Assembly: GCA_015178975.1 (NCBI GenBank) | Contig: WHVD01000026.1 | Coordinates: 124,001 to 188,000, forward strand | Length of the DNA stretch: 64,000 bases | DNA from: Hysterangium stoloniferum | Lineage: Eukaryota; Basidiomycota; Agaricomycetes; Hysterangiales; Hysterangiaceae | Direction of reading: 5' to 3' | In this document: piece by piece, positions 2,801-56,539 of the stretch | Position numbering within the stretch: position 1 is the stretch's first letter | Layout of the letters: every line of letters starts with the position of its first letter | Position numbers and translations under genes: made by a program | Notes under the pieces: model-generated | Seen by the model: only the letters and a program-made list of their open reading frames with translations | Database searches by the model: none | Told to the model about the DNA's origin: nothing

Positions 2801-2883
2801 TATAATGTCACCCCCATATAAAAGCTACTTCCAGTCTCCAGGTAACAAAATGGAAAATCGTCCAAGAACGATAGACTTCATAC

Positions 2884-3621
2884 ATGGCTTCCGACTCACC
2901 TTTTCCAATATCCTCCGACACCCCGGAAGAGTCTTGTCCTCCGACATACTACAAGTTCATCCGCCAGGTCCTCCCCTTTCGCGGGGACGTTTACATTGTA
3001 TCCTTCATCGGCATATTTAAGGAGAAAAATAAGAAGGGGGAGCACGAATTCGTTGTTGCAGCTGTTTCACCACTAGGATCCGAGTCGCACAAGTCATTGG
3101 TCTTCCTGGTCGTGGAGCGTGCACCCCATCCGGTGTCTGTCATTGATGTCCACCGAACACTTTCCTCTCCCAATCATCACGTTCAGGCGAGAGATACTAT
3201 TTTTGCCCTTGAATACTGCAACTTTGACGCATTCCTACAAAAAAGGTCTGCGCAGCTTTTGCAGTATGTCAGTTTTAATACCGCTCTCGTTGGCGGCCAC
3301 TTCCTCGCTCTCGACTTTGTGCGCATTGTGGCCTCTATATCGGAATACAAGAAGAGCTACACCCTTACCGGGACGTCCTGCTACTGGTTTGCGGGAACGG
3401 TGATGGCGACCGTCAAGGAATGTCGCTTTCCTGTGTCGCATATAAGTGGCAGCGCTGAGGCTGCTGGGAGGTATTTGGGCAAAAGAATTTTCATTCGTGA
3501 TGTAAATGAAATACGTGATCTCATCGAAATCTACAACATTAAGAGGAGTGAAGACATCATTTTCCTTGAAACCATCTCAGGTCGAAGAAGGCAGGAGCAG
3601 ACTATGCCGGTGACATGGTGA
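2884..3621 (+). CDS. CYWFA-family uncharacterised protein, intact copy B
   Basis: This is an open 245-aa frame of unknown function. It has no signal peptide or transmembrane segment, so it is probably intracellular. Conserved blocks, in order: DSPFPISSDT near the N-terminus, TYYKFIRQVL, KKGEHEFVVAAVSPLG (about 50-65), SLVFLVVER, DTIFALEYCNF (about 105), FNTALVGGHFLALDF, then SYTLTGTSCYWFAGTVMAT (about 165-180), EAAGRYLGKRIFIRD and SEDIIFLETISGRRR. The start was chosen because every copy diverges upstream of ATGGCTTCCGAC. A 57-nt intron (3618-3674, gtgagt to tgcag) splits the stop codon: spliced, the frame ends in TGA two bases into the next exon; unspliced, one Trp codon is added. Copy E has about 80 further N-terminal residues from upstream exons, so this copy may be a shortened form. 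The open frame is certain; function is unknown. Confidence 0.7.
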   Translation: MASDSPFPISSDTPEESCPPTYYKFIRQVLPFRGDVYIVSFIGIFKEKNKKGEHEFVVAAVSPLGSESHKSLVFLVVERAPHPVSVIDVHRTLSSPNHHVQARDTIFALEYCNFDAFLQKRSAQLLQYVSFNTALVGGHFLALDFVRIVASISEYKKSYTLTGTSCYWFAGTVMATVKECRFPVSHISGSAEAAGRYLGKRIFIRDVNEIRDLIEIYNIKRSEDIIFLETISGRRRQEQTMPVTW

Positions 3622-8590: not shown

Positions 8591-9328
8591 TTACTCACCA
8601 GGTGACATAGTCTGCTCCTCCCTTCTTCGGCGTGAGATGGATTCAAGGAAAATGATATCTTCCCTCCTCTTAATGTTGTAGATGTCGATGAGATAACGTA
8701 TCTCATTTGCATCACGAATGAAAATTTTCCTACCCAAATACCTCCCAGCAGCCTCAGCGCTGCCACTTATATGCTCCACAGGAAAGCGACACTCCTTGAT
8801 CGTCGCCATCACCGTTCCTGCAAACCAGTAGCAGGATGTCCCGGTAAGGGTGTAGCTCTTCTTGTATTCCGATATAGAGGCCACAATGCGCAAAAAGTCG
8901 AGAGCGAAGAAGTGGCCGCCAATGAGAGCGGTATTGAAACTGACATACTGCAAAAGCTGCGCAGACCTTTTTTGTAGGAATGCGTAAAAGTTGCAGTATT
9001 CCAGGGCGAAGATAGTGTCTCTGGCCTCGACGTGATAATCGGGAGAGGAAAGTGTTCGATGAACATCAACGGCAGATGCCGCATGAGGAACACGTTCCAC
9101 GATGAGGAAAACCAATGATCGGTGCGACTCGCATCCGAGTGGTGAAACAGCTGCGACAACAAATTCGTGCTCCCCCTTCTTATAAGTCTCCTTAAATATG
9201 CCGATGAAGGATATAATGTGAACGTCCCTGCGGAAAGGGAGGACCTGGCGGATGAACTTGTAGTATGTCGGAGGACAAGAAACTTCCCTGGTGTCAGAGG
9301 ATATTGGAAAAGGTGAGTCGGAAGCCAT
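8591..9328 (-). CDS. CYWFA-family uncharacterised protein, intact copy C
   Basis: This is an open 245-aa frame collinear with copy B, with differences spread over its length. It keeps TYYKFIRQVLPF, KKGEHEFVVAAVSPLG, SLVFLIVERVPHAAS, DTIFALEYCNFYAF, SYTLTGTSCYWFAGTVMAT and EAAGRYLGRKIFIRD. The 57-nt 3' intron is conserved at 8542-8598; spliced, the protein ends after one further Asp codon at a TGA at 8537-8539. Start at ATGGCTTCCGAC as in copy B. No signal peptide or membrane segment. Sequence upstream (9329-9540) contains an aacggttgtccattttgg remnant also seen 5' of copies B and D. Function unknown. Confidence 0.7.
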   Translation of the reverse strand: MASDSPFPISSDTREVSCPPTYYKFIRQVLPFRRDVHIISFIGIFKETYKKGEHEFVVAAVSPLGCESHRSLVFLIVERVPHAASAVDVHRTLSSPDYHVEARDTIFALEYCNFYAFLQKRSAQLLQYVSFNTALIGGHFFALDFLRIVASISEYKKSYTLTGTSCYWFAGTVMATIKECRFPVEHISGSAEAAGRYLGRKIFIRDANEIRYLIDIYNIKRREDIIFLESISRRRREEQTMSPGE

Positions 9329-9593
9329 GTATGAAGTCTACCGTGCTTGAACGGTTGTCCATTTTGGTACTGGGGATTATAAGTACTTTGCCTATGGCAC
9401 CTTCTTCATAGCGAAACACTAGTCGGGCTGTACATTCCCACGGAGCGTTGCCGTATGGGGTGATTGTGGAACATTTCAGCCAGATTACACGCATCATCTA
9501 CACTCCATAGAATATTGAAGTCGGACTTTATGCCTATCCATTTGTTCAATGTAGAGCACTACAAGTAGCCTAACGACCCTACTTTAAAGTCAA

Positions 9594-14246: not shown

Positions 14247-15378
14247 ATGTCCAGAGGCACGTACCAACGAGATTCATACCGGCGTGACATAGACCGCGAG
14301 TCACCCTCATACCTTGAGCGTCTCCCTTCCATATACTCAGTCCATGGAGGTAAATAAAGCCGTTATCTAGTTATAAATGGCTTCTTACTCTGACACAAAC
14401 CTCAGATGTGTTCGGCCAGTCGTCATCCCCCAGTCCCTCAAAACGTCGATGGAGTGTAAGTACGGGGGGAGGGGGCGAACTACTTTCTGAGCCATATCTC
14501 ATACCACCCTTCGTCAGTGTCCTCCCCCAAGCAGCAGCGAATGTGAGCATGCCAGAGACATATATCAACAAGATTCATACCAGATAGACACCGGTGATTG
14601 TGATTCCCACTCACCAAGTATCGAAGTGGGCACCCCTTCGAGAAACGATCCACCTTGTATACACATTCCTTCCGGCTCACCTTTTCCAATATCCCTCGAC
14701 ACCAGGGAAGTTTCGTGTCCTTCGATATACTACAAGCTCGTCCGTCAGCTACTCCTTTCCTACCGGGACATTTACGTTGTATCCTCCTTCGGCATGTTTA
14801 AAGAGAAAAAGAAGAAGGGGAAGCACGAATTTGTTGTTGCAGCTGTTTCACCACTCGGATCCGAGTCGCACCAATCATTGATTTTCCTAGTCGTGGAACG
14901 TGTTCCTCATGCGGCATCTATTGTTGGTATCCATCGAACACTTTGCTCTCCCAATCATTATGTCGCCGCGCATGACACGATTTTTGCCCTGGACCACCAC
15001 AATTTTTACGCATTCATTCAAAATAGATCAGCGGAGCTTTTGCAGTATATCAGCTTCAATACAGCACCCGCCGGCGGTCACTTCCTCGCTCTCGACTTTT
15101 TGCGCATCGTTGCCTCTATATCGGAGTACAAGATGAACTACTCCCTTACCAGGACCTCCTGCTACTGGTTTGCGGGAACGGTGATGGCGACGATAAAGGA
15201 GTGTCGCTTTCCTGTGACTCATATAAGTGGGAGCACTGACGCTGCTGGGAGGTACCTAGGGAAGAAAATCTTTATTCGTAATCCAGATGAGATACGTGAT
15301 CTCATTAAAATCTACGAAATTAAGAGGAGCGAAGATGTAGTTTTTCTTGAATCCATTTTGGGTCGAAGGAGCGATTAG
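14247..15378 (+). CDS. CYWFA-family uncharacterised protein, three-exon copy E
   Basis: This is the fullest gene model of the family. Exon 1 (14247-14349) begins MSRGTYQRDSYRRDIDRESP. Exon 2 (14406-14455) encodes VFGQSSSPSPSKRRWS. Exon 3 (14518-15378) carries the CYWFA body. Introns of 56 nt (14350-14405, gtaaat to ctcag) and 62 nt (14456-14517, gtaagt to gtcag) keep the frame, giving about 337 aa. The N-terminal ~85 residues are hydrophilic, rich in Ser/Pro/Arg/Asp and probably disordered. The body has SPFPISLDTREVSCPSIYYK, KKGKHEFVVAAVSPLG, DTIFALDHHNFYAF, SYCYWFAGTVMAT-type motifs and GRYLGKKIFIRNPDEIRDLI. The stop TAG precedes the 3' intron seen in copies B and C. It is more diverged from B, C and D than they are from each other. 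The model is by eye; function is unknown. Confidence 0.72.
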
Positions 15379-17779: not shown

Positions 17780-17986
17780 TGTAAGAATTACATAAGCAGG
17801 GTGAAAATATTGACCTGAGCTGGATTTGAACCAGCAACCACTAAGTTTGGATTACATGTCTAGTGCTCTTAACCCCTGAGCTATCAGGCCATTAAGAGTA
17901 GTTCTGTTAGGAACCAGTCACTACTGAGATGGTTAGTCATCAGTAAGATATTATTTTTATCCAAGTCAACCATTGCTCATTCAACA
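17780..17986 (-). mobile_element. Solo LTR (207 bp) carrying a tRNA-like gene
   Basis: Begins TGTAAGAATTACATAAGC and ends TGCTCATTCAACA (TG...CA). It is flanked by a perfect 5-bp duplication ATTAG (17775-17779 and 17987-17991). A near-identical 207-bp copy with its own duplication lies at 30303-30509. Strand is given as that of the embedded tRNA-like gene, by analogy with the TRIM at 23720, where the primer-binding site fixes the orientation. Confidence 0.88.
17811..17890 (-). tRNA. tRNA-like gene inside solo LTR, Thr(UGU)-like
   Basis: The minus strand folds as a tRNA: acceptor GGCCTGA/TCAGGTC with discriminator A, D stem GCTC/GAGC, T stem GCTGG/CCAGC with loop TTCAAAT (B box GGTTCAAATCC). 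The anticodon arm is odd: CTAGACATGTAATCC then AAACTTAG is six bases too long. Read with a 7-base loop CATGTAA, the anticodon would be UGU, but position 33 is A instead of the near-universal U. The six extra bases could be an intron or an insertion. Pol III transcription looks possible; a functional tRNA is doubtful. Confidence 0.7.
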
Positions 17987-21589: not shown

Positions 21590-22558
21590 CTAAGTGCGAA
21601 GCACAACAAAGGGATGTGAATCATTCTCAGGAGAAGGGGCTCGAGATAATCTAGGGGAAGAGTGTGAAGAATGAACCAGACCAGAGTAAGCACCACCTGA
21701 AAAATGAACTTGGGTGGAATTGGCATGATCAGGAGGACGAGATGATCCTGACATGATGTAATCCTTGATGTGAGAAGGCATATCATAAATGCAGGTGACT
21801 GAATGATGATTGGGTCTTCCACAACGATGACAGTGACCTTCATTGGCAGGATTGCACCAACGATACCCTTTATCATCCTCTAAAGAATGATTGGGAATAG
21901 CTCCATATTCTGATTTCTGACCTGAAGAATGTAAATCACCTCTGGTAGTTCATCCACCCCGGGCTAAAAATGAAGTCTCGATCGGCTCAGTTTTGATATC
22001 GATAACTGAAATGGAGGAACCAATGAGAATGTCGATGATATCAGAAAGTGAGGGTTCAGTCTTGGCAGTAAGAATGCTAGTGCGAACAGTATGATAGGAT
22101 GGATGGAGACCAACAAGAATGATGTCACCAATGAAAACATCACTGAATGGAACTCCAAGACCTTCTAGCACTTGACGAGACTTCTGAATCGATTGGATAT
22201 ACACCTCAATAGGTTTGGAAGGATCCTGTTTAGTTGCCATAAAGGCTTCTACAGCTTTGACCCTACGACCCATGGTAGACTTCTGAAAATAGGCATGAAC
22301 AGCCTTCCAGGATGCCAATCCAGAGCTGATGTCATACACCTTTGACTGGAGTTGAAAAGAAATGCGAGAATAGATAAAGAAGGCTGCCTGTCCATCCTCT
22401 GTGACCTTATCTGTAGGGACAACAGCATTGGGATCATCAGTGATCCAGGTGAAGGCAGCACCCAGGAAACACATCTTCATTGCTCTCTTCCACTCATAGT
22501 AGTTGTCCTCAACAAGGAGAGGAGCACTAGAGAAGATGGAGGTAAGACCAGAGGACAT
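21590..22558 (-). pseudogene. Copia-type Gag with one internal TGA
   Basis: The first 202 codons are open (MSSGLTSIFSSAPLLVEDNY, YYEWKRAMKMC, an N-terminal Copia Gag type). They stop at a TGA (21950-21952). The same frame continues to about 21590 and contains a zinc knuckle C-X2-C-X4-H-X4-C (CHRCGRPNHHSVTC, about codons 244-257). Total about 322 codons. The knuckle would normally bind element RNA in the virus-like particle. The TGA could be a CGA-to-TGA transition. Nothing of pol follows before the 3' LTR. Confidence 0.8.
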
Positions 22559-22642
22559 GATGTTGGATGGAAGGATTCAGGAGGTGTTGGAATAGGAGTA
22601 CTGATAAGGGAATTATGTGAAATTGATGGAGATTTAGTGGAA

Positions 22643-22820: not shown

Positions 22821-23094
22821 TATCGATGGGGTTTTAGTATCGCATTCCTCATGCAATCACGAATTTAAGGCCATCATGTACTGCTAATTATTGTGCAACA
22901 ATTTCTATTGCCTTTCTACGTACTATATACAGTCCGAAGCTTTGACTACAGCGATATTTGAGAAGCAAATAGAGTGCCGGCTTGGCTGAGGCTAAGCTTA
23001 TTAATGCAGACATATCGTAATCACACGTCACGAATTAGCACCCGCGTTAACGGGGCGTATAATAAGTTGGCTGGTGCACCACACATCATATCCC

Positions 23095-23470
23095 AATTTA
23101 TTTATTCTAATATCAACCGATCCTCCTCCCCAATAGCCATCCAGTCTCTCCCCCTTTCGATCTTCCATTCCTCATCCACATGTTTTCTCCTCGCCTCCGT
23201 CTTTCCGTCTTTCCCTTGTATATTTCCCTCACCCTTTCCTCATCCCAATCCTGCCATGTCTCCGCTTCGAGCTTGTCACAACCTCCCAATCCTCATAATT
23301 ACCTCCAGACTGCCTCATCTTTTCCATCTTTTCCCGCCATGAACATCCAGTCCCCCCGTCTCCTCAGGCCCATGCTCCCGCTCTCTATCCCCTTGTCGAT
23401 CCGGTTCTGTAAGTGCGTTCTGCATACCTCCTAACAGCCTCCTCAAACACCCTCGTGGTCGAATCAAAAT
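23095..23470 (-). pseudogene. Mtf2-like fragment in left palindrome arm
   Basis: The reverse complement matches the 3' half of the Mtf2-like fragment at 1020-2079 (GFDSTTRVFEEAV-type peptide near 23440, then GA-rich sequence). Several frames are needed to follow it. The matching fragment in the right arm is at 25790-26050. Confidence 0.5.
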
Positions 23471-23741
23471 CCACCCCATTGGCCAGAGCTTTTTCGTTGG
23501 TCCGGGTGAATATGTATGTATTGAGTTGAACATGTGTTATTTGCAAGTTAGGAAGTTTATCTCACAATTCTAATGTGAAACTATTTTTATACTCTCTCAG
23601 TTGTAAAGGATTTTATCGTGGGCGGAGATTGGTATCCTAACGTATACTTCATCAACACACTTCGTTCCTTGTAGTGTATATACCATCCGCTAGGCTATGA
23701 TACTCTGCCCGTGATCCCCTGTTAAAAGTGTAGATAATGAA

Positions 23742-23813
23742 TGGCCAGACTGGGAATTGAACCCAGGGCTTCTGCTTATATAGCAGGGGTGTTAACCATT
23801 ACACCACCTGACC
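23742..23813 (-). tRNA. tRNA-like gene in TRIM 3' LTR, anticodon position UAU
   Basis: A complete 72-nt cloverleaf on the minus strand: acceptor GGTCAGG/TCTGGCC plus A, D stem GTGT/ACAC, anticodon stem CCTGC/GCAGA (outer pair mismatched), T stem CTGGG/CCCAG with loop TTCAATT. The A box (TGGTGTAATGGTTA) and B box (GGTTCAATTCC) are near consensus and recall tRNA-Glu/Gln bodies. The loop is TATATAA: positions 34-36 would be UAU (Ile) and position 33 is A, not U. The loop also reads as a TATA box. It lies in sense orientation relative to the element. Confidence 0.75.
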
Positions 23814-23986
23814 CTGGGAAGCACTGCTAGCATTACTCAATCTAACACACTCCCTTAATGCTAGCACTCAACTATACTATAAGCAGATATAGGTCCTCTC
23901 TGGCTCTTTTGTCCAGACTTGTCCACTATACCACACACAAATATAGCTGTTCACTCTACACACAGGAACCATGCCCTATAGCACAC

Positions 23987-24002
23987 AGCGGGGCCCATAA
24001 CC
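23987..24002 (-). promoter_or_regulatory. TRIM primer-binding site (half tRNA-iMet)
   Basis: The plus strand AGCGGGGCCCATAACC directly abuts the LTR at 24003. Its last 13 bases equal those of the Copia element's site at 22643-22658. Confidence 0.7.
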
Positions 24003-24024
24003 TGTTAAAAGTGTAGATAATGAA

Positions 24025-24096
24025 TGGCCAGACTGGGAATTGAACCCAGGGCTTCTGCTTATATAGCAGGGGTGTTAACCATTACACCACCTGACC
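24025..24096 (-). tRNA. tRNA-like gene in TRIM 5' LTR
   Basis: Identical to 23742-23813 as far as read; being in the LTR, it is duplicated with each transposition. Confidence 0.75.
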
Positions 24097-24965
24097 CTGG
24101 GAAGCACTGCTAGCATTACTCAATCTAACATCCCCTTAGCTTTGTATTTAATTTTTAAAGGTGTTACGCAAATCTGATGGCGAGCTTCGACAGGAGAAGT
24201 ACAAATCCCAATCAGCTCGAAGTCCTCATTCATTTCCTCACGATTACAACCAAATATGGCCCCCAAATACGAATATAATATTTCATACATGCCAAAGTGG
24301 ATTTTCAGTTTTATTTCAGAGATAAGAAAAGAAAATCTAATATGGTCATCCAGCTTCATCTACTTCGGTAATGCTCTGTGCGAGGAGCTGTATGGTTGGG
24401 TAGGGGGAGAGTGTTAGCTCTCCGCGTATGCGTGGGAAGACTTGCCGCTCGGGAGGGCGGGTCTCCTCATGCGTTACAACTCTCGCATTAATGACTTGTT
24501 ATTATGAGTTACAATAGATAAATGAACTGTTGAATTTTAATACTGTCCTTCATATGAGAGGAGGGTGGGCGGGTAAAAATGAATAGAATGACTAAAGGAA
24601 TGATAGAGTGTAGATGAGTGCGAAATATTAGGATTGTAACGACCGTGTTGTAGTAGTAAAAAACGAAAAGGTGTGAGAGTCCTCAGTACGCTCGGCTGGA
24701 CGTTGAGTGCCGAACTACTCCCGGCATGCCAGGGATCGTACGGCACTCGATACTCGGCATACAGGGACGCACGAAGTATATGTATCTCCACACTGCTCTG
24801 TCATCTTCGCTGGTTGATGTAGTAAGAGGTAAGGGGAAAGGCGCGGTTGTGCACAGACACGCCTGAGAAGTCACAACCACCCCGGTATCATGAGATCGAT
24901 TCCCCCTCGACAAAGAAAATACTCATTAAATTAAGTTACGCTGACATTGGGGTAAGGTTGAACAG

Positions 24966-25189: not shown

Positions 25190-26608
25190 GTTCAACATTA
25201 CCCCAATGTCAGCGTAGCCTAATTTAACGAGTATTCTTTGTCGAGGGGGAATCGATCTCATGATACCGGGGTGGTTGTGACTTCTCAGGCGTGTCTGTGC
25301 GCAACCGCGCCTTTCCCCTTGCATCTTACTACATCAACCAGCAATGTGGAGATACATATACTTCATGCGTCCTCTGTATGCCTGACCATATTAGATTTTC
25401 TTTTCTTATCCTTGAAATAATACTAAAAAATCCACTTTGGCATTTATGAAATATTATATTGGTATTTGGGGCCCCTACTGAGGAAATGAATGAGGACTTC
25501 GAGCTGATTGGGATTTGTACGTCTCCTCTTCAGACTTGCGTAACACCTTAGAAAATTAAATAAAAAAGCTAAAGGAATCACGGACAGAGTACATATCATA
25601 GCCTAGCCATTCGAATGGTATATACACCACAACGAACGAAATGTGTTGATGACGAAGTATACGTCGGGAAAGGAATCTCCGTTCATGATGAGATCATTTA
25701 CAACTGAGAGAGTATAAAAAATATTTAAATTAGAATTGTGAGATAAACTTCCTAAACCTGCAAATAACACATGTTCAACTCAATATATTCATATTTACCC
25801 GGACCAACGAAAAAGCTCTGGCCAATGGGGTGGGCTTTGATTCGTGCACGAGGGTGTTTGGGGAGGGTGTTAGGGTGTACGCAGAACGCACTGGCGGAAC
25901 CGGATCCAAAAGGAGATAGAGACCGGGTGCAGGAGAGCAGTCATGGGCCTGAGGAGACGGTGTGGCTGGATGTTCATGGGGGGCAAAGATGGAGAAGATG
26001 AGGCAATTTGGGAGGTAATTATTGGGATTGAGAGGTTGTGACGAGCTCGAAGCGGAGACACCGGGGGATTGGGAGGAATGAGGAAAGGGAAAGGAACATA
26101 TACGGGGGAAAGACGGAAAGACGGAGGCGATGAGAAAACATGTGGATGAGGAATGGAAGATCTAAAGGGGGATACACTGGGTGGCTATTGGGGAGGAGGA
26201 TCGGTTGACATTATAATAAAGTCTTCATTAGAAGAAATAAATTGGCATGTGATGTGTGGTGCACCAGCCGACCTATTATACGTCTCGTGAATGCGAGTGC
26301 TAATCTGGGACGTGTGATCACGATAGGTCTACATCAATAAGCTTAGCCTCATCCTAGCCAGCACTCGACTCAATATGGCTATTGCGTATTTGCTTCTCAA
26401 ATATCGCTTTAGTGAAAGCTTCGGAGTGCATATAGTAAGTGAAAGGGCAATAGAAATTGTTGCACAATAATGGGAAATACATGGTGGCCCAGCTTAAATT
26501 CGTGATTGCGTGACGAATGCGATACTAAAACCCCATCGATATTTATAAACGGACAATACTGAGGCGTGGAGCGGGATAGGAAATTGTTGACTCGATGTAA
26601 GAATTTAT
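25190..26608 (-). repeat. Right arm of the large imperfect palindrome
   Basis: Reverse-complement match to 21210-24965 without the two LTR elements. It holds the empty Copia site (aaaccccatcgatatttataaac near 26517-26540) and the uninterrupted TRIM site region near 25555-25620. Confidence 0.75.
25790..26050 (+). pseudogene. Mtf2-like fragment in right palindrome arm
   Basis: Contains ggggtgggctttgattcgtgcacgagggtg, equivalent to the GLGFDSSTRAF region at 1640-1680, then GA-rich sequence with stops. Counterpart of 23095-23470. Confidence 0.5.
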
Positions 26609-30302: not shown

Positions 30303-30509
30303 TGTTAGAATTACATACGCAGGGTGAAAATATTGACCTGAGCTGGATTTGAACCAGCGACCACTAAGTTTGGATTACATGTCTAGTGCTCTTAACCCCT
30401 GAGCTATCAGGCCATTAAGAGTAGTTCTGTTAGGAACCAGTCACTACTGAGATGGTTAGTCATCAGTAAGATATTATTTTTATCCAAGTCAACCATTGCT
30501 CATTCAACA
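30303..30509 (-). mobile_element. Solo LTR (207 bp) carrying a tRNA-like gene, second copy
   Basis: Begins TGTTAGAATTACATACGC, ends TGCTCATTCAACA, and is flanked by a perfect CTCTT duplication (30298-30302, 30510-30514). Only about three base differences from 17780-17986 are visible. Confidence 0.9.
30334..30413 (-). tRNA. tRNA-like gene inside solo LTR, second copy
   Basis: Same 80-nt structure as 17811-17890, differing by one base seen in the variable region (cgacc versus caacc). It keeps the A at position 33 and the six extra bases in the anticodon arm. Confidence 0.7.
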
Positions 30510-47297: not shown

Positions 47298-50200
47298 TCA
47301 AGTTGGGGTCTCAGGACCTAGCTTGGAAGGAGAGGGTTGATATTTCCGCAGATGATCCCGATTAATGACTGGATGCATAGGGTACTCCGGGGGAATCTTA
47401 AGCCTAAATACTTGAGAGTTCAATTTCTCAAGGACCTCGAATGGTCCAATCCGTCTTTGTATCAGTTTCTTCCCCGTTCCCTTGACTTCCACCAGTTCGA
47501 GGGAGTGGGGGTTCACCAATACAAAATCTCCCTCAGAGATATCTTCTACAGGTCTTTGCTTCTTGTTATACGCTCGTGCTTGAATCTCTTGGGCTCGAGC
47601 GATGGAATCCCGCGCCATCTGCCGATGATTTTCTAGCTCGAGGATCCATTGGTCGGCCATAGGGCTGTCTGATAGTTCTCTAGGAACTAGGGGCTCGTCA
47701 CCTCCTAGAACTCGAGACATTCCTCTTGGGAGGTATCCCATTAATAAGAAGGCCGGGGCGTAGTTTGTGGAACTGTGAACAGTCGAGTTGTATGCGTGAA
47801 CAACTACCTCAATCCACTGGGACCAGCTTTCTTTAGCAGAGGCACAATAGGCTCGAAGCATCTGTTCTATGGTCGCGTTCATATTCTCCGTTTGCCCATC
47901 CGTTTGAGGATGATGAGCCTGAAGATACCGCAAGGGTGGTACCATAGATCTTACAGACTTCCCGCCAAAACCTGCAGGTCCATCTCTTATCCCGGTCACA
48001 GATTATTCGAGAGGGCAGTCCGAAGGGGCTTGCTACCTGTTTGACAAATATTCGTGCGAATCCTTCAGCGGTAAGGTTCGAAAAGGTAGGTATTGTAATA
48101 GCGTAGCGCGTCAATTTATCAACGGCAACGAAGACTGCGGAATACGAATCCTTTCCTGAATCGGGTAGTCCAGTGATCAAGTCCATAGAAACTACCTCGA
48201 ATGGCCTAAAAGGTACGTCAGCCGGTCTGAGGGCTCCTTGACGAGCGGTGCGATCGACTTTGGTTTTTTGGCAGATATCGCAGGTACGCGCGTACGACAC
48301 GCAATCTTGTAGCATTCTCGGCCAAAAGAACCGGTCTTTCATCAGGTTGAACAACCGCTGGCCTCCTGGCGTGTGCTCCCTCAAAAGGGTTATCATGCAC
48401 CAACCTTAGAATCGAGTTAATCATGGTTCTGGGTACACAGACTCGACTTTTCCAGTCCGAGTCGCGAAAGTACAGGAGTCGGTTTGCTCCCACGAAGTAG
48501 TGAGAAGGAGTAACAACTGCGTTGGGTGAAGGGGTATCTAAAGCATAGAGATTCCTGAAAACCGGGTCCTTTGAATAACCCTCTAGAAATTTCTTTATAT
48601 ATCCCTCCTCGATGCTGATTAGTAGCTGAGGATGACGCAATGCGAAGTCGGACTCGTCTTCCTGGTCATTCCTTATTGCGTTATGAATATCCCATTCTGA
48701 CCGTCGGACCTTTTGAGTTACTCCAAAAGGCTCCATAGAATCGAGTATGGTAGAGAAGACCGCCTTCTTAGCGGGTTCGTCTTTCCATAGTTTTTCCTCA
48801 GTATTCTTGTCCAGAGAAGTCGAGGTGATAGCCTGCAAATCATCTCTAATAGGGCTCACGAAGGCTGGTACCCGAGGGAGTCTGGACAGTGGATCCACGT
48901 TGCTGTGAACTCTCCCTGCTCGATGCAAAATCTCGAGACCTGGAAATGCAGCGTATATCGCCCCCCATGCGGCTAGTCGACGATTAGTGTTCTCGTAAGA
49001 TCTAGCCCATTGCAGAGCTGCATGGTCCGTAATGAGCAGGACATGTTCACCTTCAATGAAAGGTTGAAAGTGGACCAGTCCCTCCTTTGCTGCTAATGCT
49101 TCCCGTTCAGTAGCAGAATAGTTACGCTCCGCGCTTTTCAGCGTGCGACTCCAATATGCAATGACTCGTTCAACAGTAACTTCGGTCGCCTCAAAAGTGG
49201 ATCCCCACGAATCCGACCACTCAATCTCGGGCTGTTTGGTTTTGTACCGATGAACAAAGGATGGCACGTCCTGCGCACGGTCAAAAGCCAATTTGGCTTG
49301 GGCGTAGATTTTTGTATCCACTAAATCTCCTAAAGCCATCTTCTGGACTTGTTGGAGGCAACAACCCAAGGCAAAATCCGAAGCGTCCGTATACAATCGG
49401 TAGGGCATCCCACTAACTGGATGTCCCAACACTGGAGCTGATCCTAATGCGGTTTTAACATCCTCATAAGCTCGGACATGTTCAGCAGTCCACGTCCAAG
49501 GTGTTCCCTTTTTTAGGAGCGAGAATAAAGGGGACACCATCCATGAATAAAATGGTATATATGCTGAAAAGTAAAGGACCATTCCAAGAAACCGTTGTAG
49601 ATCAGAAACCTTAGTGGGTGGGGCCAATTCCAATATAGCGCGAACCTTTTCTTGATGGGTTGAAAAACCCAGCCTAGATACTTTATGACCCAATAACAAT
49701 ATCGAATTATATCCGATAAAACATTTCTTGGGAGAGAGAGTAATACCGGCCGAAGCGATAGCGCCAAGCACCTGCATTCAGGTGAAGCAAATGATCATCC
49801 CAGTTCTTAGAGAATATGACTATGTCATCGATGTAGACTAAACAAAAAATCCACAAGTAGGGTGCTAGAACCGTTTGCATGACGCGCTGAAATGTAGAGG
49901 GGCCGTTTCTGAGCCCAAATGGCATCCTTTTAAATTGCCACAGCCCTCTATGGGATCTAAAGGCTGTTTTGGGCTTATCGTCCTCCAACATTTCTAATTG
50001 AGTAAACCCGGCCAGCGCATCGAAAGAAGAAAGAACATTTGACCCCGACAGCGCTTGCATAATCTCCGATTGACGTGGTAAAGGGAATTCGTCTGGAACA
50101 GTGAGATGGTTAAGTTTCCGATAGTCGATGACCACCCGCGGTTTACCATTGCGATATACTACAAAGGCTGGCGCTCCCCAGGGGCTTTTAGATGGCTCAA

Positions 50201-50627
50201 TGACACCCTGTTCGAACCAGGTATCCATTTGCTCGCCTATAACTCTCCTATTGGCAGGGGACGAGGGGAACATAGGCATGGATATGGGCTGAGCGCCCTC
50301 TTTCAAGGGGACAGGGACTCTACATTCCACTTGCCCTAACCGTCCGTCGACTCCGAAAGCCTTAACGTTCTCAGTCAAAACTGATCTGAGATGTGGCAGG
50401 ACCTCCATTGGTATATCTGGTCCCAAATTGACTAACTTGTGAAGATCCTCTGAGGCAAATTTCTCATTATCAGCCACTGCAGCCGTCTTAGGACCAGGCG
50501 GTTCGAAATCGTCTGCAATCTCTGGTTCAACAGGTGGCTTAGGCCTTTCTGAGGCGACTTGACGGTCCTCCTCAAGTTGAGAGAGACTTTCGATAAGGTG
50601 TGCAATCTTGGTCGCGCCTGCTACCAT
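47298..50627 (-). pseudogene. Gypsy pol: RT, RNase H, integrase, three frameshifts
   Basis: RT lies at 50627-49770: VIEPSKSPWGAPAFVVYRNG, RVVIDYRKLN, the catalytic VYIDDIVIFS, with a frameshift just after it near 49770. RNase H follows (LYTDASDFALGCCLQQ; SATEREALAAKEGL; LLITDHAALQWA, 49400-49000). Integrase has the HHCC region (CVSYARTCDICQKTK), Asp in VSMDLITGLP, Asp in RIICDRDKRW and Glu in HHPQTDGQTENMN, then a GPF/Y-type module (QRRIGPFEVLEKLN). Frameshifts also lie near 48385 and 47930. No chromodomain is seen after QVFRLKIPPEYP. Inactive. Confidence 0.88.
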
Positions 50628-50705
50628 TAAACCTTTCTCCTCAAGTGACCTGGGCTTGTGAGCCCAACGAGCAGGGTCATGAATTATCCCTATTGTCTCC
50701 CCTCG
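50628..50705 (-). other. In-frame link between protease and RT
   Basis: The reading frame of 52322-50706 continues through a TGA at about 50706-50708 into the RT frame (RGETIGIIHDPARWAHKPRS). Gag-pol was therefore probably one frame. Confidence 0.55.
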
Positions 50706-52934
50706 TCAGATAGTCTTAGGGGTTAGCGATGGATTGGCTAAAGGTACTGCCGCACTATTCCTTGAAATTGCCGTGATTGGTGTGGCTAATATAGAACCGT
50801 CTTCGTTTTGCAGTACAATTCCTTCAACAATCCATTCCTCGCCCTTTAGATCTTCAACAAAAATAGGCACTAGTCTGGCTGACTCTGGATCGATAGTGCA
50901 ATCCTCCAAGGCTCGCGCGACTCTTTCAGTACGCACACCTTTATCGGGGAGAGAGGTGAGTTTGGATGACTCCTTCTCATGCTTCCCGAAAGGGGCCTTA
51001 TTGACAGTGAAGGTCAAAGGTTGAGGTTCCTTAGAAGAACTGGCTGGAATAAAACCCTGTCGTCCTGGGAGAATAAGTCTAGATCCCAGCGGCTGATCTC
51101 TTAGAGTACCAATTTCATAATTAATATGGAAGTCTTCTCCCAAAAGAATTGGCACCGTCATTCCTCTAACGACATAAGTTTCTGCCGCGAACTTCAGTAA
51201 CGTTCCACTGTCGTCCTCCAGGTAAATGGGGATATTAACATATCCGATAACCTTAGCGTTACCCGTGAGCTGGATTAGACGTAACTTGAGTCCTTGTTTC
51301 AACTTATACATGCCCTGCAGTTCCTTGTAGAATTCCTCCGATATAAGAGAAAGATCCGCTCCTGTGTCCATTCGAATTTTAACGCGTTCGGGTGAATCGG
51401 GAGTTCCTACATGACCGAAAACATGGAGCGCTGCAACTCCTATGCTAGAGTAACCACTGGGGGGATCCCGTTTTCGATAAAGGATTGTAGTATCCTCCTT
51501 CATCAGACGACTGGGACGAGGGTATTGGATTTGAGGCCTCTTACTTTCCTTGCACAGGGACAAGATTACGTTCCTGCGTTCACTTCGGCAAGGAACACGC
51601 TTCGAAGGGGAATCCAATACTGGATCATCATCGCTGTCCTCCGAATCCGAATTCTCGTACGGTAGTAAATCAGGGCGGTTCCCGGGATCAAACGGAAACG
51701 TGTCAACATCAGCTCCAGGCAAACAGAGCGAATTCGAACTGATTTGTTCGTGAGAATCTCCAATCTGACAATAGTCCTCGGTCAGGCCTTCAAGGTCCTG
51801 CCGATGAGCACTCAGTCGGTCTCCTTTTTCGAAGAAATCTGCGGCGAATATGGATACGTAAGCTTCAGACAGAAGAGCTTCACCAGTCGTTCGATTTTCC
51901 TCCCTCACTAATTTGTCTTCGCCATGGGGCGAATAAACGGAAACAAAAGTCAATTCGTCATCAGAGTTATTTACTTGTCCTTGTATAGATAGTCCATGAA
52001 CCGCTTCATATAACCTTTGCTCCTCAGCTTCCTCTGACATATCCTGTGCGGAGCAGTTGTTGATAGAGACATAATGAGACATTTTGCCAGCTTGAGGGCA
52101 GTCTATCTTAAAATGCTCTGGACTTCCACATATCCAACATTCCTTGGTGGGTTTGACCGAACTCCTCTTGTTACTCCTCTCGAAGAACATTTTTCCGTAC
52201 ACATCATCATGCGTACGAAGTGCTTCAAGGAACATAGAAAACACCTCCCACTTGAGAATTCTTCTTCCTCCTTCCATAGTAGTCGTCACCTCGTTCGACC
52301 ATTCAGGAATCAATTGGGTCAAATCCTCAAGGTTCCCTGGTCACGTGAATAAATCCCACGCCGATAAAATCACTTGATAACGCCCTAACCAGACTGCTAC
52401 AGTCTCCGGTAGAATAGGGTAATCCGTACTGTACTCCTCCACGAAGGGGGTAACCTGATCCTCAGGGATTCGATCGGTGTAGTGCATGTCCCATTTGTAA
52501 TCGATGGGCTGGGCGTAAACCATATGACCTCCGAGGAACTGCTTAAGGATGACCTGTCTCGGAGGGAATCTGAGAACGGGCGTGGGTGCTCGATTAGACT
52601 CAACATTAACTCCAGGGGTGTCCAACTGCTTGAGTAATGAGCGTTCCTCAGGTGGATCGGGGGGAATATTCATTGACGATCCAACTACTACTCTGAGGGA
52701 ATCCTCTGGAGGAGGTGATCCTGAAGGAAGCTGGGGAATGTTCGTAGACGATCCAGCTACTACTCCGGGGGAATCCTCCGGAGGAGCTGATCCTTGAAAA
52801 GTCGACGAAGACTTCCTCAGGGTGACGTTACGGGGTGGTTCTAGGTTAAAAGATTTTTGACGAGGCATGGAGCTACCCGGCATTGATGAAGGCCTAGACG
52901 TTTGATTCTTGCCCGTAGTCATTCGTGTGTTCAA
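50706..52934 (-). pseudogene. Gypsy Gag and protease, internal TGA
   Basis: A Ser/Pro-rich Gag N-terminus starts at 52934 and stops at a TGA near 52341-52343 (WDLFT-stop-PGNLEDL). The same frame continues to 50706. It has a zinc knuckle CWICGSPEHFKIDC (C-X2-C-X4-H-X4-C, about 52150) and an aspartic protease with RMDTGADLSLISEEFY (about 51370) and VPILLGEDFH (about 51150). Both internal stops here are TGA. Confidence 0.85.
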
Positions 52935-52980
52935 GTCTTAGTAGTCAAATAATAAGTTTTTCCTCGTAGGAAAAGAACGG

Positions 52981-55080: not shown

Positions 55081-55498
55081 TGTGAGGAGTATGCTTTTAC
55101 CACAGTTTCATTGTGGTAAAACACTCCTTTTATTTTATTTATATTTTACACATTTTATTCATATTTTTCTATCCTTTATATTCTTTGAATATCATACCAT
55201 TTCATTAGTTCGAAGCTTTGTGTATACTTGTGGGTGCACTCGACACCAAATAGAACTCAGACACACTTTTACCCAAGAACCACTACTCGTAAGACATAAA
55301 CTAGGTCTACTACGAGTGGTGATCAGGGTAACGTGTCAGCTACTACATAGGTAGCAGTATCTGAACTATCTAACACTTCTGGCCTCGAACTGTAACAGTC
55401 GAGGCCTCCACTCGAATCATCCTTCTCAAATCATCCTTCCTCCCATTCTACTCATTTCTTTGTATATAGAATGGTCAGAACTTATACCACTCTTCACA
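55081..55498 (+). mobile_element. Solo Gypsy-related LTR (418 bp) nested in the minisatellite
   Basis: Begins TGTGAGGAGTATGC, ends TACCACTCTTCACA, with a perfect GGGAG duplication (55076-55080, 55499-55503). Closest to 43506-43832, with about 90 extra bp. Confidence 0.88.
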
Positions 55499-56260
55499 GG
55501 GAGTCTGACCAGGAGGCTGACCAGGAGTCTGACCAGGAGTCTGACCGGGAGTCTGACTGGAAGTCTGACTGGAAGTCTGACTGGAAGTCTGACTGGAAGT
55601 CTGACTGGAAGTCTGACTGGAAGTCTGACTGGAAGTCTGACCAGAAGTCTCACTGAAAGTCTGACCAGAAGTCTCACTGAAAGTCTGACCAGAAGTCTCA
55701 CTGAAAGTCTGACCAGAAGTCTGACCAGAAGTCTGACCAGGAGTCTGACCAGAAGTCTGACCGGGAGTCTGACCAGAAGTCTGACCGGGAGTCTGACCAG
55801 AAGTCTGACCGGGAGTCTGACCAGAAGTCTGACTGGGAGTCTGACCAGAAGTCTGACCGGGAGTCTGACCAGAAGTCTGACCAGGAGTCTGACCAGAAGT
55901 CTGACCGGGAGTCTGACCAGAAGTCTGACCGGGAGTCTGACCAGAAGTCTGACCGGGAGTCTGACCAGAAGTCTGACCGGGAGTCTGACCAGAAGTCTGA
56001 CCGGGAGTCTGACCAGAAGTCTGACCGGGAGTCTGACCAGAAGTCTGACCGGGAGTCTGACCAGAAGTCTGACCGGGAGTCTGACCAGAAGTCTGACCGG
56101 GAGTCTGACCAGAAGTCTGACCGGGAGTCTGACCAGAAGTCTGACCGGGAGTCTGACCAGAAGTCTGACCGGGAGTCTGACCAGAAGTCTGACCGGGGGT
56201 CTGACTGGAAGTCTGACTGGGAGTCTGACTGGGAGTCTGACTGGGAGTCTGACTGGAAGT
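55499..56260 (+). repeat. 12-bp minisatellite (GTCTGACCAGAA / GTCTGACCGGGA)
   Basis: About 63 units of GTCTGACYRGRA. From about 55735 the two variants alternate, giving a 24-bp higher-order repeat. Since 12 is a multiple of 3, both strands are open: plus gives Ser-Leu-Thr-Arg/Gly repeats and minus gives Gln-Thr-Ser/Pro-Gly repeats. These are not credited as genes. Confidence 0.9.
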
Positions 56261-56539
56261 CACCTTGAAGGGATGAGGATCAGGTACCAGTGGATTCTGG
56301 ATCTTGATACTGGTCCAGAAGATGGTTTGGACCGAGAGATAATATCCGGGAAATACTCCAAAGAGTTTCCAGGAATGGATCTTCACAAAGGAGGAGGAAA
56401 GATTATGCCTACTCCCTCACAGTGAGGGTGCAGCACATGAGCTGAAGCCAAGTCCTTCTGTATTTCTGGTATCATCCTGACAGTTTTGAGATATTACTGG
56501 GTATTTGCCTGGTAGACCTGGAACTTAACAGGTTGTCCT

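Follow-up and report, generated by a model that had tools for sequence, protein, structure and literature searches.

A Helenus-type retrotransposon in Hysterangium stoloniferum, and cut-short and Copia-fused copies that probably show how, and by whom, such elements are copied

We found that a 411-bp element in the window (the 64,000-nucleotide stretch of Hysterangium stoloniferum DNA analysed here) is, by the published description rather than by Repbase consensus sequences, a further example of Helenus, the TRIM with a tRNA-derived block in its LTRs that was named by Kojima in 2024 (Biology 13:119, PMC10886601). Copies of its family with a shortened 5′ LTR, and chimeras of a sister family with Copia, go beyond what is known of such elements; these cut-short and fused copies probably show how, and by whom, they are copied. 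The first-pass annotation of this DNA, made from the sequence alone, knew of no established name for the element, and on this point it has to be corrected, as the kind had already been named. We hold with high confidence the reading of the element as a Helenus, a non-autonomous LTR retrotransposon (TRIMp3-class TRIM), that moves by the copying cycle proposed below.

The two identical 128-bp LTRs, the TCCCC duplication and the primer-binding site that the first-pass annotation had described within 411 bp were all confirmed by the exact repeat, the borders and the flanks (Table 1). The exact direct repeat runs over 23718-23847 and 24001-24130, of which the LTRs proper take up 128 bp each, and the internal part between them is 155 bp. 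The element reads on the minus strand, as given by the direction of the primer site and the purine tract, which stand at the two ends of the internal part. By its size the element is non-coding, and no ORF of 180 amino acids was found within it. Its sense strand has one stretch of at least four T near the end of each LTR and no others. A long imperfect inverted repeat (22869-23657 and 25647-26489, with pieces 82-90% complementary) surrounds the element.

Table 1. Features of the window element, with the two solo LTRs of family 2 found in the same window
Feature	Position	Strand	Basis
Helenus-type TRIM, 411 bp	23720..24130	- (sense = minus)	repeat, border and genome-copy comparison
5′ LTR, 128 bp, TGTTAG...TAACA	24003..24130	-	
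3′ LTR, 128 bp, identical to 5′ LTR	23720..23847	-	
tRNA-like block of 5′ LTR, 72 nt; ARAGORN Ile, anticodon tat; A33	24025..24096	-	ARAGORN, Rfam
tRNA-like block of 3′ LTR, 72 nt	23742..23813	-	ARAGORN, Rfam
Primer-binding site, 15 nt; complement of the anticodon arm (nt 25-39) of initiator-Met tRNA	23988..24002	-	
Purine tract AAGGGAGTG, adjoins 3′ LTR	23848..23856	-	
GGTGGTG in 3′ LTR, LTR positions 40-46; putative second plus-strand start	23802..23808	-	
TTTT near 5′ LTR end; possible weak Pol III terminator (presumed function)	24007..24010	-	
TTTT near 3′ LTR end; possible terminator (presumed function)	23724..23727	-	
Target-site duplication TCCCC, left copy	23715..23719	.	
Target-site duplication TCCCC, right copy	24131..24135	.	
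Solo LTR, family 2, 207 bp, tRNA-Thr(tgt)-like block 17810-17891, target-site duplication ATTAG	17780..17986	-	
Solo LTR, family 2, 207 bp, tRNA-Thr(tgt)-like block 30333-30414, target-site duplication CTCTT	30303..30509	-	

Elsewhere in the window, the minus strand carries retrotransposon remains at 47298-52937 (zinc knuckle, RT_RNaseH_2/RT_RNaseH domains), which from the domain set we take to be of Gypsy type, and a fragment of Copia gag (Retrotran_gag_2, PF14223) at 21950-22576. The proteins of 2875-3621, 8591-9337 and 14491-15378 look alike by eye; the first is without a Pfam match, and 10 of the 12 homologues found for it come from Hysterangium stoloniferum. A tandem repeat at 55426-56425 is open in several frames (SLTG/SLTR repeats).

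A search of the host genome (111 Mb in 554 contigs; Agaricomycetes, Phallomycetidae, Hysterangiales) with the 411-bp query gave 389 candidates, and because the best 40 of these were scored, the resulting copy number, at least 45 matching rows with at least 43 over the whole query, is a lower bound. Our copy sample consisted of 40 loci (L001 and L053-L091) chosen for their likeness to the whole window element. The 5-bp duplications that the first-pass annotation had proposed to count among genome copies were found as identical flanks at 35 of the 40 loci, against 2 of 1,640 mismatched flank pairs used as a control. The five loci that lack a matching duplication are L070, L081, L085, L087 and L089; L081 and L089 share their flanks and may represent one duplicated site. 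The two LTRs showed no differences in 31 of 42 pairs and one to three in the rest, the primer site was unaltered in 37 of 42 internal parts (one changed base in the other five), and the last 14 nucleotides of the internal part were invariant in all 42. Three loci (L059, L069 and L078) are arrays of three LTRs with a single target-site duplication outside. The idea that such arrays are template-switch products is disfavoured by L078, in which the outer LTRs are two differences apart and the middle one is one away from each; in L069 the outer LTRs are identical and the middle one is two off, and in L059 the LTRs do not differ.

The tRNA-like block is part of the window family. All 83 LTR rows of the 40 loci contain it, a count that is circular because the rows were chosen by whole-LTR likeness, and we replaced it by a sample of 49 places that was made with exact patterns and without regard to the block (46 with the exact LTR end and primer site, plus three with one variant base; solo LTRs of the window family fall outside this sample). 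The whole block precedes the primer site at 41 of these 49 places and therefore belongs to the family. Thirty-six of the places fall within the 40 loci, all with a full LTR, as have five of the remaining 13. The others are an LTR with a 14-bp gap in the block (C508, one place), four places with an LTR border inside the block before the primer site and a complete 3′ LTR (C540, C57, C104 and C335), and three places in an array on C520 (~241.3-242.0 kb; L118, L119), whose ~220-bp units hold only LTR positions 1-23 and 92-128. BLAST within the 40 loci gave 86 hits, 84 of which span LTR positions 1-128; the remaining pair belongs to L087, a rearranged locus, and stops within the block. Among the LTR rows, 9 of the 72 columns inside the block and 12 of the 56 outside it are variable, which gives no sign of selection on the block. 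The first-pass reading, in which both LTRs of a TRIM carry a tRNA-derived block as a parallel to Cassandra, is thus supported by the sequence and by the genome copies; among the 49 places the block is neither missing from most LTRs nor commonly cut by their borders, the two findings that would have made it a chance insertion.

Complementarity of the internal part to the initiator-Met tRNA extends over its first 15 nucleotides at 15 of 15 positions, and the three genes for this tRNA found in the host genome are all intron-less. The 15-mer occurs at 240 places in the genome, three of which are these genes, and its reversed control at none. Among the 100 places listed of the 240, 16 are followed within 5 kb by a Copia RVT_2 on their own strand, ten of them at 2,865-2,890 bp, and the controls over the same distance and the same 100 places gave six with an opposite-strand RVT_2 in front and two with a same-strand one behind; the RVT_2 set consisted of 49 of 150 listed places, which were the best 150 of 1,270 candidates. 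The Copia leaders (nine compared, of 16) share just the first 15-17 nucleotides of the window family's internal part with it.

Two further families carry a tRNA-like block in the LTR. The 10 loci of family 2 that we examined, drawn from 40 listed rows of 154 candidates and including both in the window, each consist of a single LTR with its block, and nine have a target-site duplication. Family 3 has an LTR of 251 bp, a block of 75 nucleotides (48.6 bits in L095) and an internal part of 67 bp whose first 14 nucleotides are the primer site, and its 318-bp units are repeated in tandem. On C112 and C68, tandem tRNA arrays were rejected as a fourth LTR family, since 10 loci had no TG...CA repeat borders. 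Many intron-bearing tRNA genes of 94-95 nucleotides lie on C112 (~0.98-1.22 Mb), C68, C410, C526 and C98 (among L028-L052); ARAGORN often gives these clustered tRNAs the anticodon tta, by eye they are tRNA-Lys(CTT) with an intron, and some stand in units of ~400-450 bp. Among the matches listed, family 3 and many Copia RVT_2 rows occur on common contigs (C534, C543, C182, C514, C60, C441, C35 and C137), perhaps a targeted compartment, whereas the window family is scattered over contigs.

The copying cycle that we propose would begin with the A- and B-box-like block of the 5′ LTR starting an RNA by Pol III. The TTTT of the 5′ LTR would be leaky, so that this RNA passes it and stops at that of the 3′ LTR, at a length of about 370 nucleotides. 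A Copia-type reverse transcriptase would prime on the anticodon arm of the initiator-Met tRNA, to which the complementarity is observed and of which the use is presumed. The second strand would begin at the purine tract and, occasionally, at a tract inside the LTR, the latter giving copies with a short 5′ LTR, and an integrase would insert the DNA with the 5-bp duplication that we observe. The role of the block would thus be in transcription and not in decoding.

Chimeras of family 3 with Copia bear on the partner in this cycle. At C35:906k the tRNA LTR of family 3 stands before a Copia leader; eight of the nine leaders examined (of 16) are without a tRNA. A query made from this junction found at least six places spanning it among the best 40 of 466 candidates, in the leader of one Copia family, and all six junctions fall exactly at the primer site common to family 3 and Copia. 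The joining of a sister-family tRNA LTR to a Copia leader at their common primer site suggests, as far as sequence comparison goes, that tRNA-LTR elements are copied jointly with Copia.

Five of the chimeras were read at both ends, the bodies between being unread, and three of these have matching 5-bp flanks, two of the three in low-complexity sequence. C259 has a Copia LTR followed by the internal part and the tRNA LTR of family 3, then the Copia leader, with a Copia LTR at the far end; the flanks are ATCAC/ATCAC, and the outer Copia LTRs are identical at 346 of 349 positions. In C2 one end consists of the tRNA LTR joined to the Copia leader, and the opposite end of a Copia LTR followed by the internal part and the tRNA LTR of family 3; its outer LTRs differ by one mismatch and one gap, as against three to six mismatches to the five other loci, and its flanks (TTTTT/TTTTT), being a T-run, are weak. 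C35:906k has the tRNA LTR and leader and a far-end Copia LTR, between AGAGA/AGAGA flanks in AG-rich sequence; when joined, these flanks can be aligned to an adjacent repeat unit across the junction (score 109, against at most 100 in 1,000 shuffles). The order in C14 and C256 is that of C35:906k, and their flanks do not match (GACCA/GGAAC and CTTCT/AGTTT). The near end of C35:1081k, of which one end was read, is like that of C259.

For the window family, no chimera with Copia was found with an exact pattern of LTR end (that of 78 of the 83 rows) and unchanged primer site (37 of 42). Three hits to the chimera pattern were discarded, being the window element's own internal part, one at L117 beside a full LTR and two in the block-less array. 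Nor was a Copia LTR found before a window-family internal part, all 46 exact places having their own LTR, whole or cut.

A target-site duplication together with near-identical outer LTRs is taken as a sign of template switching in the part of Sabot and Schulman 2007 (PMC1950507) on which we draw. We give an even chance to the reading in which co-packaging and strand transfer at the initiator-tRNA site swap LTRs between Helenus and Copia, while in the window family the block adds a second plus-strand start. The open frames that contain RVT_2 at C35:906k and C14 are 1,385 and 1,386 amino acids long; if the reading is true, a Copia with such frames now stands behind a tRNA-bearing, possibly Pol III, LTR, and the six junctions are a fossil record of TRIMp3 trans-mobilisation that names the helper of family 3.

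Slightly short of an even chance, in our estimate, is an origin of the chimeras by recombination in the host, with a circle crossing into a copy already inserted, and not by strand transfer in reverse transcription. The sole homology that we saw, ~20 bp of LTR end and primer site, lies exactly where the junctions fall, matching flanks are absent at two of the five chimeras read at both ends, and such a crossing would equally preserve the target-site duplication and the outer LTR pair, which applies to C259 and C2. C35:906k speaks for strand transfer instead, in that AGAGA stands on both sides and the flanks align through the junction, as if a ready-made chimera had been inserted.

As to transcription, a B-box match is present in all three tRNA-LTR families, and the A-box match is 9, 10 and 11 of 11 positions across them (9 in the window family) against the A-box consensus; a different A-box expression matched in none of the three. 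Since it has no U33, the block is more likely a promoter than a working tRNA, presumably one used by Pol III. It is doubtful that the LTR is instead transcribed by Pol II, with the AT-rich anticodon loop as a TATA box and the block as a passenger or a source of small tRNA-like RNA. That loop does read TATATAA in the window copy, its counterpart in family 3 reads CATATAAAG, and Pol III would run into a TTTT already within the 5′ LTR. However, the base that makes TATATAAG is private to the window copy (A in 2 of the 83 LTR rows, T in 81), for which reason we gave up the idea that this loop holds a conserved TATA box; family 2 has no TATA-like motif, and the B box, as noted, is matched in every family.

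The short copies concern a later step of the proposed cycle. In all four (C540, C57, C104 and C335) the 5′ LTR starts at exactly LTR position 47, inside the block, and they have their own 5-bp duplications (GTTTT, GTCCG, ATCAC and GAAGG). No start position from 30 to 69 other than 47 gives a match of the 5-bp flanks, and cross-matches among the four were 0 of 12. GGTGGTG stands directly before position 47, and GGTGGTG/T is the best of the 121 LTR 8-mers when compared with the true junction GGGAGTG/T (6 of 8 positions; the runner-up has 5), although by purine content alone, six of nine before position 47, five other LTR 9-mers reach seven or more. Since the plus-strand primer sets the left end in LTR-element replication, and the start at 47 is exact and common, the short copies are most simply explained if the plus strand was primed at another purine-tract-like site, within the tRNA block. 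In such copies, one step of the cycle would be visible in the genome itself. A single exact start in four insertions would also fit an RNA that begins there and is copied by first-strand run-on, but this is unlikely: position 47 belongs to the A box, within which Pol III type 2 promoters are not known to start transcription, and it directly follows GGTGGTG, in the 8-mer that is uniquely the best purine-tract match.

The block itself, in both LTRs and on the minus strand, is matched by RF00005 (the Rfam tRNA family) with 51.5 bits against a gathering score of 29, so that the covariance-model check proposed earlier for 23742-23813 came out positive. As no other family reaches its gathering score in the window LTRs, a Cassandra/5S identity is ruled out. 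ARAGORN calls a 72-nucleotide tRNA-Ile(tat) in each LTR on the sense strand of the element, where the first-pass annotation had placed a cloverleaf. That cloverleaf is whole, with the reservation that position 33 is A and not U and that a C27-A43 mismatch breaks one pair of the anticodon stem, features that make the block unlikely to decode. Most Helenus blocks are rated non-functional as tRNAs in the relevant part of Kojima 2024 (PMC10886601). It is thus very improbable that the element spreads a functional tRNA gene in the form of this block, even though its score is high and its fold more stable than that of shuffled sequences (z = -2.6; 4 of 200 shuffles equally good). A duplicated pair of tRNA genes or a dimeric tRNA SINE, without LTRs, would account for the tRNA-like head of each unit and for the tandem arrays, yet tRNA SINEs have no LTRs and have target-site duplications of variable length, and this idea, of nearly negligible probability, is refuted by the paired TG...CA borders and the 5-bp duplications (35 of 40 loci), along with the target-site duplications of 9 of 10 family-2 solo LTRs, the primer site, the purine tract and the identity of 31 of 42 LTR pairs.

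In the sections of Kojima 2024 (PMC10886601) that bear on these points, Helenus shares with the elements described here the tRNA-derived LTR block, the 5-bp target-site duplication in fungi, the presence of several families per genome, the solo LTRs and an iMet anticodon-loop primer site common to Copia; the primer sites of fungal Helenus come mostly from the tRNA anticodon arm, with Ty5 and Drosophila copia cited as parallels. Hysterangiales are absent from Table 1 of that paper, and the iMet genes of our host are intron-less where the paper describes an intron. The range of Helenus is extended here to Hysterangiales, a single genome of which holds three or more families with tRNA-bearing LTRs, and in the tRNA annotation of such fungi these LTRs should be masked. 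Mobilisation by Copia is argued in the same sections from primer sites, target-site duplication length and one internal similarity; a term search of the paper's text gave no occurrence of 'chimer' or 'Hysterangi', and no short-LTR copies were seen in those sections. The chimeras turn this presumed mobilisation into joined, testable molecules. Other descriptions of tRNA-bearing LTRs were not found at the level of titles and abstract openings, with the subscription literature mostly outside that scope.

Cassandra of plants is similar in having a Pol III-type gene in a TRIM LTR and, according to the portion of PMC7215508 used here, tandem arrays of LTR and internal part; it differs in that its block is 5S rRNA, whereas the window LTRs carry a tRNA block. 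Among TRIMp3 elements, Pol III transcription is counted as validated for Cassandra only, in the same sections of Kojima 2024 (PMC10886601), where Ajax of nemerteans also appears with the TRIMp3 plan and, in contrast to the window element, with a partial 5S block and in animals. The chimeras resemble the template-switching complexes of cereals, as presented in the part of Sabot and Schulman 2007 (PMC1950507) cited above, in being composites with a flanking target-site duplication and near-identical outer LTRs. The partners in the cereal complexes, however, belong to one family, whereas here a Copia is joined to a non-autonomous element whose LTRs are unrelated to those of Copia.
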